Of a stretch of 64,000 nt of DNA, positions 5,160 to 15,499 are shown piece after piece. Position 1 is the first letter of the stretch, and the number at the start of each line of letters is the position of its first letter. Where the stretch lies: positions 186,001 through 250,000 of the forward strand of contig JADLCY010000001.1 in NCBI GenBank assembly GCA_020846935.1, written 5' to 3'. The position numbers and the translations under genes were made by a program. Source of the stretch: Gemmatimonadaceae bacterium. Lineage in GTDB: Bacteria; Gemmatimonadota; Gemmatimonadetes; Gemmatimonadales; Gemmatimonadaceae. The notes under the pieces are model-generated. The model was not told where the DNA came from and ran no database searches. It worked only from the letters and a program-made list of their open reading frames with translations.

Positions 5160-5188
5160 TTGACATCTTCGGGTGGCCTGCCGATACT
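5160..5188 (+). promoter_or_regulatory. sigma70-type promoter of the hom operon
   Basis: A perfect -35 hexamer TTGACA (5160-5165) is followed after exactly 17 bases by GATACT (5183-5188), a good -10 box. A start near 5195 would put the SAM-II-like element at the very 5' end of the transcript, which is where a riboswitch should be. It is a sequence match only, but the geometry is unusually clean for this GC-rich genome. Confidence 0.65.
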
Positions 5189-5207
5189 CAGGCCACAATC
5201 GAACGAG

Positions 5208-5258
5208 ATACGTGGCGATTTACGGCAACTTGCGGCCACGCTAAACAAACGCTAAACA
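5208..5258 (+). ncRNA. SAM-II-type riboswitch (S-adenosylmethionine)
   Basis: The stem CGTGGC (5211-5216) pairs perfectly with GCCACG (5235-5240). The conserved GATTTA follows the 5' strand (5217-5222), CTTGCG precedes the 3' strand, and two A-rich GCTAAAC motifs follow (5240-5247 and 5251-5257). This is the layout of the SAM-II aptamer, an H-type pseudoknot in which the A-rich tail docks into the stem and SAM bridges the grooves. It lies 86 bases upstream of the homoserine dehydrogenase start and just after a promoter. SAM-II elements normally switch off methionine/SAM biosynthesis genes. The assignment rests on the motif pattern, without a covariance model. Confidence 0.8.
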
Positions 5259-5266
5259 GCCCATCC

Positions 5267-5298
5267 GTCCCCGAGGCTATGCCGTCCGGGGACTTTTT
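5267..5298 (+). terminator. leader terminator hairpin of the riboswitch expression platform
   Basis: GTCCCCG (5267-5273) pairs with CGGGGAC (5287-5293) and is followed at once by TTTTT (5294-5298), an intrinsic terminator located between the riboswitch and the hom start. The 5' arm overlaps an 11-nt sequence (5261-5271) that is perfectly complementary to 5314-5324, just upstream of the ribosome-binding region. Two mutually exclusive foldings are therefore possible, consistent with a regulated expression platform. Confidence 0.65.
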
Positions 5299-5343
5299 GT
5301 TTCCGGGTCTTCCGGGACGGATGGACGGAGAGGAAAGGGCACC

Positions 5344-6330
5344 ATGGCTACACCCGTCCTGCGCCTGGGACTGATCGGCTTCGGCACGGTCGGACAGGCA
5401 TTTGCGCGAGGGCTCGCACAGTCTGCGGATCGGCTCGCCTCGCGGCTCTCCGCGCGGATTCGCTTGGCGCGCGTGGCGGTTCGGGTACCGCAGAAGGTAC
5501 AGCCCGCGTGGCCTGATCTTCGGATCGGCGATGATCCGCTCGCCCTGGCCTCTGACCCCTCGGTCGACATCGTGGTCGAGGCAACGGGAGCGGATACGGC
5601 ATGCGGGTGGCTCACCACCGCGCTCAATCGCGGCGCCGTCACCGTTTCTGCGAACAAGCAGGCCGTTGCCGGATCACTGCCTCTCCTCCAGGCGCTGGCG
5701 GACCGCCATCCGCTCTTTCACTGCGAAGGTGCGGTGGCCGCGGCGATCCCGATCGTTCGCGCGCTCCGCGAAGGGCTGGACGGCGAGGACATCCTCGACA
5801 TCCGCGGCATCCTGAACGGAACGAGCACCTTCATCCTCTCCGAAGTCGAGCGGGGCGCGGAGTTCGCAGCGGCCTTTGCGCGCGCGGAGTCCCTTGGCTT
5901 TGCCGAGCGCGGCAGCCGCGCCGACATCGACGGCAGCGATGCCGCGGCAAAGCTCGCGATCCTTGCTTCCACGGCGTGGCGCACCCCCATCGTGCGCGAG
6001 CGGGTGCGGGTGCGTGGATTCGATGAGCGCATCGTCGCGCAGGCTCGTCAGGCCTTCGGTGCCCAGCGTCGCGTGCGCCTCGTCGCCGAGGCGTGGCAGG
6101 CGGACGGACCCCGCCTGATCGTGGAACCGCGCGTGCTCGACGGCGACGATCCGCTGGCCACGGTCACCGGCGTCACCAACGCCGTGGAACTCACCGCCGT
6201 GCTCGCGGGGCAGCTCCGCTGGTTCGGCCCCGGGGCGGGTGGTGACCGCACCGCATCAGCCCTGCTCGGCGACGTGCTCGCCGGTGCACGCACGCTGCTC
6301 TCTGGCGGGCTCGGGAGGGTCGCCGCATGA
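5344..6330 (+). CDS. hom: homoserine dehydrogenase (monofunctional, no ACT domain)
   Basis: This enzyme reduces aspartate semialdehyde to homoserine, the branch point to threonine and methionine. The 328-residue protein opens with the NAD(P)-binding GFGTVGQ motif. It has the SANKQAVAG segment, the ILNGTSTFIL signature of the catalytic domain and the RADIDGSDAAAKLAIL stretch. At this length the C-terminal ACT domain that gives threonine feedback inhibition in many Hom proteins is absent, so control may be mainly by the SAM-II-like leader. The ATG at 5344 has an upstream purine-rich GGAGAGGAAAGG. Its last four bases overlap the next gene (ATGA), indicating translational coupling. Confidence 0.93.
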   Translation: MATPVLRLGLIGFGTVGQAFARGLAQSADRLASRLSARIRLARVAVRVPQKVQPAWPDLRIGDDPLALASDPSVDIVVEATGADTACGWLTTALNRGAVTVSANKQAVAGSLPLLQALADRHPLFHCEGAVAAAIPIVRALREGLDGEDILDIRGILNGTSTFILSEVERGAEFAAAFARAESLGFAERGSRADIDGSDAAAKLAILASTAWRTPIVRERVRVRGFDERIVAQARQAFGAQRRVRLVAEAWQADGPRLIVEPRVLDGDDPLATVTGVTNAVELTAVLAGQLRWFGPGAGGDRTASALLGDVLAGARTLLSGGLGRVAA

Positions 6331-7571
6331 CCACGACGGTCGCACCTGACACGCTCGTCCCGTTCCCGCTGGAGTGCGCCAACTGCGGCGTGTCGCACAC
6401 GAGCGACCGCCCGGCGGCGATCTGCCCCGAATGCCTCGGCCCGCTCGAGGTGGTGTACCCGGAGGGTCGCTCCCTTCCCGATCGCGCCACCATCGCGGCG
6501 AGACCGCCCACGCTCTGGCGCTATCGCGAGTGGCTCCCCTTTGAAGGAACGCCGCTGGCCGCGCGCGACACCGGGTGGACGCCGCTCGTCGAGGCCCCGC
6601 GGGTCGCATCCGCGTTAGGCGTGCGCCGTGCCTGGCTCAAGCTCGATACGCTGTCCAACCCGTCGCTCTCGTTCAAGGATCGCGTGGTCACCACGGCGAT
6701 CAACGCCGTGCGTGCCTTCGGACTGGAGGCGATCGCGTGCGCGTCCACCGGCAACCTCGCGAACGCGGTGGCCTCGGCCGCCGCGCGCGAAGGGTTGCCG
6801 GCCTGGATCTTCGTCCCACATGACCTGGAGATCGCGAAACTGGTCGGAACCCTCGTCTACGGTCCGCGACTCGTGCGCGTTCGGGGAACGTATGACGATG
6901 TGAACCGGCTCTGCGCCCAGCTCGCCGACGAGTATCCGTGGGGCATCGCCAACGTGAACCTCAGGGCGTACTACGGCGAAGGCTCCAAGACCATGGCCTT
7001 CGAAATCGCCGAGCAGTTGGAATGGCAGCTGCCAACGGCGGTCGTCGCGCCGATGGCCGGTGGCTCCCTGGTCACCAAGCTGCGCAAGGGCTTCGGTGAG
7101 TTCATCGATGCCGGGCTCGTGGACGACGCGCTCCCGCGGGTCTTCGGCGCGCAGGCATCGGGTTGCGCCCCGATCGTGCGTCTGTTCGAACGCGGCAGCG
7201 GCGGCATCGTCCCCGAAGTACCGTCCACCATCGCGCGCTCTCTGGCGATCGGCAATCCGGCCGACGGCGTCGCCGCTGCGCGAGTCCTCAGGGAAACCGG
7301 TGGCGGCGCCGCGGCGGTGAGCGACGACGAGATCCGCGACGCGATCCGTGAGCTCGCGTCCCTTTCCGGTGTGTTTGGTGAGACCGCCGCGGGCGTGACG
7401 TATGCCGGCGCCAAGGCGCTCGCGCGAAGCGGAGCCCTCACGGCCAAGGACGACGTGGTGCTCTGCCTCACGGGCAACGGCCTCAAGACGGCCGAGGCGC
7501 TCACCGCTGACCTCGACCAGGTGCCGACGATCGCACCGCGCCTCCGCGAGGTCGAAGCCCTGGTTTCCTGA
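6327..7571 (+). CDS. thrC: threonine synthase-family PLP enzyme with N-terminal zinc ribbon
   Basis: The product has 414 residues. A four-cysteine zinc ribbon comes first (C17, C20, C33, C36), then the fold-type II PLP domain with the Schiff-base lysine K117 in SNPSLSFKDR. A phosphate-binding glycine-rich segment (VAPMAGGSLVTKL) and ACASTGNLANAV also fit. By family it converts O-phosphohomoserine to threonine. Its place between a SAM-controlled hom and genes for a sulfur carrier and its activating enzyme raises an alternative: a paralogue that accepts sulfide from a protein thiocarboxylate to make homocysteine. Sequence alone does not decide between the two. It overlaps hom by 4 nt. Confidence 0.85.
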   Translation: MTTTVAPDTLVPFPLECANCGVSHTSDRPAAICPECLGPLEVVYPEGRSLPDRATIAARPPTLWRYREWLPFEGTPLAARDTGWTPLVEAPRVASALGVRRAWLKLDTLSNPSLSFKDRVVTTAINAVRAFGLEAIACASTGNLANAVASAAAREGLPAWIFVPHDLEIAKLVGTLVYGPRLVRVRGTYDDVNRLCAQLADEYPWGIANVNLRAYYGEGSKTMAFEIAEQLEWQLPTAVVAPMAGGSLVTKLRKGFGEFIDAGLVDDALPRVFGAQASGCAPIVRLFERGSGGIVPEVPSTIARSLAIGNPADGVAAARVLRETGGGAAAVSDDEIRDAIRELASLSGVFGETAAGVTYAGAKALARSGALTAKDDVVLCLTGNGLKTAEALTADLDQVPTIAPRLREVEALVS

Positions 7572-7631
7572 CGCCACCGCGCGCGTGATCCATGCGCGCG
7601 ACTTCCTTCCGATCTCATCGAGTTCCGACTC

Positions 7632-7907
7632 ATGCCGATTCCTGTCCGACTCCCCTCCGCCCTGGCGGCCCAGGCCGGTGGCAACCGAAAGCTCGACGCC
7701 GAAGGATCCACCGTGGGCGCCGTCCTCGATCACGTCGTGGAGCGCTTCCCGAGTGTAGGCCCTCGCCTGCGCGACGCGGCCGGCGAATTGTATCCGTTCG
7801 TCACGGTGTACCTGAACGACCAGGACATCCGGTTCGCCGACGGGTTCGCCACCGCGGTCCGCGAAGGCGACGAAGTCGTCATCGTCCCGGCTGTCGCGGG
7901 AGGCTAG
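7632..7907 (+). CDS. CysO/ThiS/MoaD-like sulfur-carrier protein
   Basis: The product is a 91-residue beta-grasp protein. Its C-terminal half (FVTVYLNDQDIRFADG, then EGDEVVIVPAVAGG) matches CysO of Mycobacterium very closely in wording and ends in the Gly-Gly that is adenylated and thiocarboxylated in this family. CysO-type carriers donate sulfur to a PLP enzyme rather than to molybdopterin or thiazole. The activating enzyme follows 6 nt downstream and a PLP enzyme lies 60 nt upstream, so all three parts of a protein-thiocarboxylate pathway are together. No JAMM-type peptidase (Mec) needed to release the amino acid from CysO is seen in the window. Confidence 0.85.
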   Translation: MPIPVRLPSALAAQAGGNRKLDAEGSTVGAVLDHVVERFPSVGPRLRDAAGELYPFVTVYLNDQDIRFADGFATAVREGDEVVIVPAVAGG

Positions 7908-7913
7908 CTTCCG

Positions 7914-9092
7914 ATGGGTACGCTCACCGAACCCGTGACCACGGCTGACGTGGACCTTCCCGAACTCTCCGCCAGCGAACTCGCCCGCTATAGCCGTCAC
8001 CTGCTCCTGCCCGAGGTCGGGGTCGAGGGTCAGCGGAAGCTCAAGGCGGCCCGCGTGCTGCTCATCGGCGCCGGGGGCCTCGGATCACCGGCAGCGCTCT
8101 ACCTCGCCGCAGCGGGCGTTGGCACGCTGGGCATCGTCGACTTCGACGTCGTCGACGTGACCAACCTGCAACGACAGATCCTGCACGGCACCCGGGACGT
8201 GGGCCGCTCGAAGCTGGCCTCGGCGACCGAGCGCCTGTTGGACGTCAACCCGCACCTGAACGTCGAGGCGCACGAGGCCCGGTTCACTTCGGCGAACGCG
8301 CGCGAACTCGTCAGGCAGTACGACCTCGTCGTCGACGGCACCGACAACTTCGCCACGCGCTACCTCGTGAACGATGCCTGCGTGCTCGAGGGGCGGCCCA
8401 ACGTCTATGGCTCGATCTTCCGGTTCGACGGGCAGGCGTCGGTGTTCTGCACCACCGATGGTCCGTGCTACCGCTGCCTCTATCCGGAGCCGCCACCGCC
8501 GGGGCTCGTCCCCAGCTGCGCCGAGGGCGGCGTGCTCGGCGTGTTGCCGGGCCTCATCGGAACTCTGCAGGCCACCGAAGCCATCAAGCTCATCCTGGGT
8601 GTGGGGGAGCCGCTCATCGGCCGCCTCACGCTCGTCGACGCGCTCGGCGCACAGTGGCGCGTGGTCAAGGTGCGCCGGAACCCGGCCTGCCCGGCGTGCG
8701 GCACCCGCGAGCTCACGGAACTCGTGGACTACGACCAGTTCTGCGGCCTCAGGAACGTGCCAACGGAAGCTCCGGTCCCGGAGACCACGCCTCGCGAAGT
8801 GGCCGATCGCCTCGCCCGTGGCGATGACTTTGATCTGATCGACGTGCGCGAACCGTATGAAGTGAAGATCGCCGCGTACCCCAGGGCCACCCTGATCCCG
8901 CTGGGCACCCTGCCTGACGAGATCTCGTCCCTCGATCGCTCGCGCGAGATCGTCCTCGCCTGTCGCAGCGGTGCGCGAAGCGCCAAGGCCGTACGGCAGC
9001 TGCAGGCTGCTGGCTTCACAAAGGTGTGGAACCTCGCCGGTGGCATCCTGCGCTGGGCCGACGACGTGGACACGACGCTCACGAAGTACTGA
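7914..9092 (+). CDS. moeZ: MoeZ-like E1 adenylyltransferase/sulfurtransferase with C-terminal rhodanese domain
   Basis: The protein has 392 residues. Residues 25-260 form a ThiF/MoeB E1-like domain: ATP-binding GAGGLG (52-57), a zinc site from CYRC (C175, C178) and CPAC (C249, C252), and a conserved cysteine in SCAEGGVLG (C192). Residues about 290-385 form a rhodanese domain with the active-site loop CRSGARS (C350). Such fusions adenylate the C-terminal glycine of a sulfur-carrier protein and transfer the persulfide sulfur from the rhodanese cysteine. The substrate is almost certainly the CysO-like protein encoded 6 nt upstream. MoaD of molybdopterin synthesis is possible as a second client. 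Confidence 0.88.
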   Translation: MGTLTEPVTTADVDLPELSASELARYSRHLLLPEVGVEGQRKLKAARVLLIGAGGLGSPAALYLAAAGVGTLGIVDFDVVDVTNLQRQILHGTRDVGRSKLASATERLLDVNPHLNVEAHEARFTSANARELVRQYDLVVDGTDNFATRYLVNDACVLEGRPNVYGSIFRFDGQASVFCTTDGPCYRCLYPEPPPPGLVPSCAEGGVLGVLPGLIGTLQATEAIKLILGVGEPLIGRLTLVDALGAQWRVVKVRRNPACPACGTRELTELVDYDQFCGLRNVPTEAPVPETTPREVADRLARGDDFDLIDVREPYEVKIAAYPRATLIPLGTLPDEISSLDRSREIVLACRSGARSAKAVRQLQAAGFTKVWNLAGGILRWADDVDTTLTKY

Positions 9093-14197: not shown

Positions 14198-15499
14198 TCA
14201 GTTCGCCGCAATCCCCTGCTTCGCGGCCCTGAGCATCACGTCGCCGAAGTGGTCGACTTCGTCCAGCGTCGTATACACGCTTGGCGTGACGCGGAGGCCA
14301 TGAAACTCCGGGTGCACGATGGCCACCGTCATGATCCTGTGCTTCGACCAGAGCCAGCCCTGGAGCTTTGGCGTCTCGACGCCTTCCAGGTTGACGAGGC
14401 AGATCGCGCACGACTGCCGGTCATCGAGCGGCGTGAGCACGTTGAACCGGCCGTTCCCTTCGGCGAGCAGCCGCTTGGCCCACCGATCCCGCAGGTAGCG
14501 CAGTCGCGCGGCCTTGCGCTCGAGTCCGATGCCCCGATTGAACGCCGCGGCAAGCGAGATGGCGTTGTGGTTCGCGGCGGGATGCGTGCCGATCTCCTCG
14601 TACTTCCGGATGTTCGCCACCTGCTCCTTTGACGCCGCCATCAGTGGCCACAGCTTCGGGATCTTCTCGCGACGAACGTAGAGGAAGCCCGTGCCGATGG
14701 GCGCAAAGAGCCACTTGTGCAGCGAAGTGCCGTAGTAGTCGCAGCCGAGGTCGTCGCGCGTGAACGGGAAATGCGCGAACGCGTGCGCTCCGTCGATCAG
14801 CACCTCGATGCCCTTCTCACGCCCCATCTCCACGATGCGGCGGATCGGGAGGATCTGACCCGTGAGATTGGTGATGTGCGTGAGCTCGATGACCCGGGTG
14901 CGCGGCGTGATGGCGGCCCGGAACTGATCGACGATGTAGTCGTCGGACGGCGGGGGAACGCGAAACGAGATCTGTTTGACGACGATCCCCTCGCGGCGCG
15001 CGCGCTGGTCCCACGTGGTGATCATCCGACCATAGTTCTGGTTGGTGATGATCACCTCATCGCCGCGCTGGAGGTCGAGCCCAAGGATCATCGTCTCGTT
15101 GGCCTCCGACGCGTTGCGCGTGATGGCCATCTCCTCGGGATCGCAGCCGAACATCTTCGCGAGGTCCCGGCGCACCAGTTCGATCCGCGGCTCGAGATCC
15201 TGCCACATGGTCCAGACCGGCATCTGGTTGGACCACTTGAGGTCGCGGAACATGGACTCGAGGACGTGGGTCGGCGTGGGGCTCACGCCGCCATTGTTCA
15301 GGTTCACCGTGGTCCGGTCGTCATCGAAGGCCCGCTGGATCTGCGCCCAGTAGTCCTCGTCCGTCGCCGCGCCCTGCGCCGTCTTTCCGGCGACGATTTC
15401 GTCGGCACGGAAGATCGTGGAGAGCGAGTCCGGCCTGAACGCCGGGAGCGCGACTCCCATGCGCACCATCTTGTTGACGAATCCACGCCGGTCGGTCAT
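14198..15499 (-). CDS. class V aminotransferase-fold PLP enzyme with TAT-like signal
   Basis: The protein has 433 residues. The PLP lysine is in the TSLHKWLFAPIGTG segment, the pyridine-N-binding Asp is in LIDGAHAF, and the phosphate-binding region is ITRNASEANET. The subgroup resembles isopenicillin-N-epimerase/cysteine-desulfurase-like proteins. The N-terminus MTDRRGFVNKMVRMGVALPAF has a twin-arginine RRGFV pattern followed by a mild hydrophobic stretch, suggesting TAT export, which is unusual for a PLP enzyme but known in this subgroup. The start at ATG 15499 places the twin arginines at residues 4-5. The substrate is unknown. Confidence 0.8.
   Translation of the reverse strand: MTDRRGFVNKMVRMGVALPAFRPDSLSTIFRADEIVAGKTAQGAATDEDYWAQIQRAFDDDRTTVNLNNGGVSPTPTHVLESMFRDLKWSNQMPVWTMWQDLEPRIELVRRDLAKMFGCDPEEMAITRNASEANETMILGLDLQRGDEVIITNQNYGRMITTWDQRARREGIVVKQISFRVPPPSDDYIVDQFRAAITPRTRVIELTHITNLTGQILPIRRIVEMGREKGIEVLIDGAHAFAHFPFTRDDLGCDYYGTSLHKWLFAPIGTGFLYVRREKIPKLWPLMAASKEQVANIRKYEEIGTHPAANHNAISLAAAFNRGIGLERKAARLRYLRDRWAKRLLAEGNGRFNVLTPLDDRQSCAICLVNLEGVETPKLQGWLWSKHRIMTVAIVHPEFHGLRVTPSVYTTLDEVDHFGDVMLRAAKQGIAAN

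Follow-up and report, generated by a model that had tools for sequence, protein, structure and literature searches.

A SAM-II riboswitch before a homoserine dehydrogenase operon in Gemmatimonadota: a probable transcriptional OFF switch with a conserved hairpin beyond its terminator

Results

The window, a stretch of 64,000 nucleotides from a Gemmatimonadaceae contig, carries at 5344-9092 a set of four genes encoding a homoserine dehydrogenase (hom), a threonine-synthase-like (thrC-like) enzyme, a ThiS-like sulfur carrier and a ThiF-like protein with a rhodanese domain. They are preceded by a leader containing a promoter, an aptamer and a terminator (Table 1). Family matches (PF00742, NF004976) agree with the earlier note on this DNA in calling the gene downstream of the riboswitch homoserine dehydrogenase. 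The promoter described there is likewise present, TTGACA (5160-5165) and GATACT (5183-5188) being separated by a 17-nt spacer. It is the sole sigma70-like pair in the 3.5 kb between 4000 and 7500, against 0.3 expected. Among 101 related aptamers, 11% have a promoter-like score of at least 8 in the sequence upstream, compared with 1% after shuffling.

Table 1. Features of the leader and of the genes behind it (positions in the window).
Feature	Position	Strand	Basis
Sigma70-like promoter, TTGACA-17-GATACT	5160..5188	+	10/12 matches
SAM-II aptamer, full-length RF00521 match	5202..5276	+	35.2 bits
P1 stem 5211-5216/5235-5240 with loop L1 5217-5234 (conserved GAUUU, CUUGC)	5211..5240	+	sequence; relatives
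Conserved GCUAAA and P2 pseudoknot 3' strand (GCC 5259-5261, partner GGC 5224-5226)	5252..5261	+	covariation
Candidate antiterminator segment	5275..5285	+	predicted fold to 5286; own-versus-swapped test; function inferred
Intrinsic terminator: 5267-5273/5287-5293, apical GGC/GCC, U-tract 5294-5298	5267..5298	+	predicted energy; relatives
Inner post-terminator hairpin 5286-5293/5299-5306, U-tract looped out	5286..5306	+	predicted fold
Enclosing helix 5261-5271/5314-5324 (11-nt complement)	5261..5324	+	shuffles; covariation
Shine-Dalgarno GGAGAGG, outside the 11-nt helix	5327..5333	+	sequence
hom, homoserine dehydrogenase	5344..6330	+	PF00742 1.2e-43; NF004976 above cut-off
Threonine-synthase-like PLP enzyme, overlapping hom stop	6327..7571	+	TIGR00260 235 bits, above cut-off
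ThiS-like sulfur carrier, ends in GG (C-terminus AVAGG)	7632..7907	+	PF02597 1.4e-14
ThiF-like activating enzyme with rhodanese domain	7914..9092	+	PF00899, PF00581

A permissive scan of 301 nt matched the RF00521 (SAM_alpha) covariance model over its full length (E=1.5e-6), bearing out the SAM-II-like pseudoknot that had been read from the letters. The covariance-model check proposed with that reading thus gave a match, albeit one 0.8 bit short of the Rfam gathering cut-off of 36 bits, because of which a gathering-threshold scan of the whole window listed nothing. Both stems are kept and covary in relatives: 99.3% of P1 cells are paired in 25 distinct relatives, of the same 25, 12 have GC and 8 have CG as the outer pair of P2, and all three P2 positions pair in 54 of 71 distinct aptamers. 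The conserved unpaired GAUUU, CUUGC and GCUAAA are all within the aligned match. The long-loop subtype of SAM-II (RF01726) was rejected, scoring 18.2 bits against a cut-off of 44.

Moreover, RF00521 occurs twice more in this genome, at 39.0 and 37.9 bits, both above the cut-off; these paralogues stand before cysH-like and metH-like genes (named from sequence, without family search). The family was found in 39 of 41 related genomes. Within the order 264 of 288 genomes have it, as against none of 14 control genomes, and in a sample of the phylum 202 of 298. Since two paralogues pass the cut-off and the family is this widespread, membership of the window leader in SAM-II is secure on sequence grounds; with P1 and P2 conserved, the 0.8-bit shortfall is a matter of threshold and no feature is missing. 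This RNA is almost certainly an S-adenosylmethionine (SAM) sensor of the known class SAM-II. The regulator can be regarded as near-universal in one Gemmatimonadota order, and a literature search on SAM-II and riboswitches in Gemmatimonadota found no relevant earlier report.

Relatives of the aptamer sit upstream of metH-, metX-, metY/B-, metF- and cysH-like genes (named from sequence). One of the same-genome copies (L001, G000:C10:28906-28979) precedes a cysH-like gene, for an APS/PAPS reductase; from this location, SAM may regulate sulfate reduction as well. Four aptamers (L006, L032, L055 and L066) stand before panB-like genes, which by sequence encode ketopantoate hydroxymethyltransferase and would not be expected behind a SAM sensor. 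Another recurrent target is an ATP-grasp-like family of unknown role (L024, L056, L058, L065 and L071). L006 and L065 lie back to back on opposite strands of one contig (G005:C13:14227-14302 and 14510-14583), one before the panB-like gene and the other before the ATP-grasp-like gene.

The four-gene set of the window is found behind SAM-II leaders in several genera, conserved or permuted. The same order, with a ThiS-like protein ending in GG, occurs at L139-L142, L144 and L147. At L145 (G024:C4) the aptamer is followed by ThiS, ThiF and the thrC-like gene, at L146 (G021:C3) by the thrC-like gene, ThiS and ThiF, and at L143 (G072:C36) by hom and then ThiF, with neither the thrC-like gene nor ThiS. 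Family searches of the source genome, which covered MetX, Prok-JAB and MetY-family proteins, gave no MetX and no Prok-JAB match; MetY-family proteins are present, and there are three thrC-like genes, the operon copy and two others. Among the ten genomes with this type of hom, a strong MetX match (302 bits) is confined to G072; matches in G004, G048 and G092 are weak (109-153 bits), and the other six gave none at 1e-30. G072, the sole strong-MetX genome of the ten, is also the one whose operon is without thrC and ThiS. The lack of a MetX match in the source genome suggests that the thrC-like enzyme may make homocysteine from O-phosphohomoserine and a protein thiocarboxylate. Such a route, if true, would explain why the operon is controlled by a SAM sensor. 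We did not find a route from O-phosphohomoserine and a ThiS-type thiocarboxylate to homocysteine in the literature searched.

An intrinsic terminator lies between P2 and the gene, where the earlier note had placed a hairpin with a T-run. GUCCCCG (5267-5273) pairs with CGGGGAC (5287-5293), with GGC/GCC at the apex, and five U residues follow; the predicted fold of the platform up to the U-tract has an energy of -17.8 kcal/mol. A simple terminator scan missed this hairpin, owing to a loop limit of 8 nt. Counterparts are common: 92 of 102 related leaders have a terminator-like hairpin, ending in a U-rich tail, 3' of the aptamer, compared with 28 of 102 when the downstream 100 nt were shuffled.

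A candidate antiterminator would pair UGCCGU (5280-5285) with ACGGCA of L1 (5222-5227) and GGCU (5275-5278) with AGCC (5258-5261). For the nascent RNA up to 5286 this is, unaided, the lowest-energy predicted fold (-19.6 kcal/mol). Once the 3' arm emerges the terminator wins, the antiterminator being predicted to be some 10 kcal/mol the weaker when both can form; it must therefore act kinetically. Aptamer loops paired better with their own platforms than with swapped ones. In two tests of the longest pairing run the observed value was reached in 2 and 8 of 5000 permutations, and in two tests of duplex energy in 5 and, more weakly, 243 of 5000, with relatedness among leaders left in all of these counts. 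As a control, the loop was set against a window further downstream, where own and swapped combinations showed no difference. Taken together, the terminators, the swap tests and the predicted folds fit a transcriptional OFF switch of a kinetic type. An antiterminator formed by the 3' strand of the aptamer alone was also considered and is unsupported (1374 and 1442 of 5000 in the swap test).

Further downstream, the 11-nt complement reported in the earlier note is exact and overlaps the 5' arm of the terminator by 5 nt, as described. It is the longest inverted repeat in the leader, and one as long arose in 1 of 1000 dinucleotide shuffles. It had been said to reach towards the ribosome-binding site (RBS); it does adjoin the site but stops short of it, its 3' strand ending at 5324 and the Shine-Dalgarno (SD) sequence starting at 5327. 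Ten hom leaders, drawn from five genera, and 3 thrC-type leaders can form the helix immediately before the SD, with 0-3 nt between the two. Across these 13 leaders, 94.4% of cells in the outer six pairs are standard pairs and three of the six pairs have changed on both sides, as counted on 9 distinct rows with hand-placed strands, the one on the 3' side being the segment that immediately precedes the SD. Neither the paired percentage nor the covariation score was reached by any of 500 shuffles, and sliding the partner strand lowered pairing to 35-58%. A full-leader MAFFT alignment, in which some rows had the 3' strand misplaced, was excluded from these counts. Own-versus-swapped tests within the 10 hom leaders (segments 1x4 and 2x3) had low power because the strands are too similar, and covariation was counted instead. 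The 11-nt helix of the hom and thrC leaders is real.

Together with the inner hairpin, which is predicted in the window leader and in most hom leaders, the helix makes up one long hairpin, whose energy with the fold enforced is about -35 to -56 kcal/mol. Most of the 13 leaders have it as their lowest-energy platform fold, with L084 a clear exception. The helix can form only once polymerase has passed the terminator and so is no antiterminator in the usual sense. Refolding of the terminator after read-through is a more likely role for it than sequestration of the RBS. No description of a post-terminator hairpin was found in the SAM-II literature that we compared.

Discussion

We propose, with a probability of roughly 80%, that the SAM-II riboswitch is a transcriptional OFF switch for the hom, thrC-like, ThiS and ThiF operon. 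The computed basis of this reading is the family match, P1 and P2, the terminator, the clade-wide pattern and the covarying helix, from which we infer SAM binding, the direction of control, the action of the antiterminator and the role of the long hairpin. When SAM is bound, GGC of the loop strand and GCC of the 3' strand would be taken up by the P2 pseudoknot. Held in this way, P2 would block the ACGGCA/UGCCGU and AGCC/GGCU pairings of the antiterminator, whereupon the hairpin at 5267-5293 would fold and polymerase would stop at the U-tract. If SAM is absent, the antiterminator would be the first to form and polymerase would read through. In the read-through RNA the arms of the terminator would then re-pair as a longer and more stable hairpin, 5261-5271/5314-5324 closing around 5286-5306. 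This hairpin ends just upstream of the SD and most likely serves to dismantle the terminator and to keep the U-tract off the SD, thereby permitting translation as opposed to blocking it.

An alternative that we consider unlikely is a dual platform in which SAM sets termination and two near-equal folds of the read-through RNA set translation. One fold would keep the terminator and pair its U-tract (CUUUUUGUUUCC) with the SD, and the other, the long hairpin, would free the SD. The two folds of the window leader are indeed nearly isoenergetic, at -50.3 kcal/mol (to 5338) and -50.7 kcal/mol (to 5342), the predicted accessibility of its SD is 0.21 in the terminator fold and 0.64 in the long-hairpin fold, and L084 favours pairing of U-tract and SD. 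However, the same contrast in accessibility is absent from other leaders, and poly-U pairs with purine-rich SD sequences by composition. Moreover, U-tracts paired no better with their own SD than with swapped ones, in a test of low power for which the U-tracts of L087, L034 and L049 and the starts of several leaders were mis-set, and whose values therefore carry no weight here. It is distinctly doubtful that such a two-layer platform, with terminator and refolding hairpin setting access to the SD, is joined to an operon making homocysteine from O-phosphohomoserine and a ThiS-type thiocarboxylate.

It is quite improbable that the terminator is constitutive and that SAM acts otherwise, on the promoter or on RNA stability, perhaps as in metA of S. 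meliloti, whose terminator has no predictable SAM-II-driven antiterminator (PMC9373788). The weakness of the window's antiterminator relative to its terminator would agree with this, but each aptamer loop is a better match for the terminator region of its own leader than for swapped ones, and the alternation between GCCGCC/GGCGGC and GCCGCG/CGCGGC shows this most clearly. Lastly, the RBS-sequestering stem that the earlier note saw in the 11-nt complement, alongside the terminator, is rejected as highly improbable: the helix does exist, shows covariation and comes so near the SD that it could sterically hinder the ribosome, but it leaves the SD unpaired in all 10 hom leaders, is impossible in terminated RNA and overlaps P2 by just 1-2 nt, which would give SAM little grip on it. 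Nor do the two folds differ consistently in the accessibility of the SD.

The OFF-switch reading places the window leader among SAM-II riboswitches of the terminator type. SAM-II was described mainly from alphaproteobacteria, with promoters lying immediately ahead of P1 and, in many cases, a terminator downstream of P2 (Corbino 2005, PMC1273637); in alpha- and betaproteobacteria it is seen most often together with a terminator (Barrick and Breaker 2007, PMC2258182). Like the RF00521 representatives first known as the metA motif (PMC1273637), the window leader has the P1 stem and the P2 pseudoknot, the conserved loop and GCUAAA, with a promoter just 5' of P1, a terminator 3' of P2 and methionine genes downstream. 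Unlike them, it belongs to Gemmatimonadota, precedes hom-thrC-ThiS-ThiF and carries a covarying hairpin past the terminator. In S. meliloti the metZ leader, which the window leader resembles, is of the terminator type, its terminator being predicted to depend on SAM; the metA leader combines a terminator with control of translation (PMC9373788). The earlier note had called a combination of terminator and RBS-pairing stem unusual. The terminator stands and the stem does not, and metA is a SAM-II precedent for a combined platform. Unlike metA, where the SD lies within the aptamer and AUG2 is used (PMC9373788), the window leader has no SD in P2, its own lying about 65 nt downstream. A further likeness is to the c-di-GMP-I riboswitch Bc1 of B. 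thuringiensis (PMC11218506), which has a long expression platform and dual regulation of transcription and translation; however, Bc1 has another ligand and aptamer and two terminators in series, whereas the window leader has one terminator, which would refold. More than 100 natural leaders are now offered for the study of SAM-II-driven terminators, a question left open by the S. meliloti study (PMC9373788), and the regulon points to a candidate sulfur-carrier route to homocysteine. What sets the window leader apart, and is worth testing, is its conserved second fold past the stop signal together with the sulfur-carrier operon behind it.
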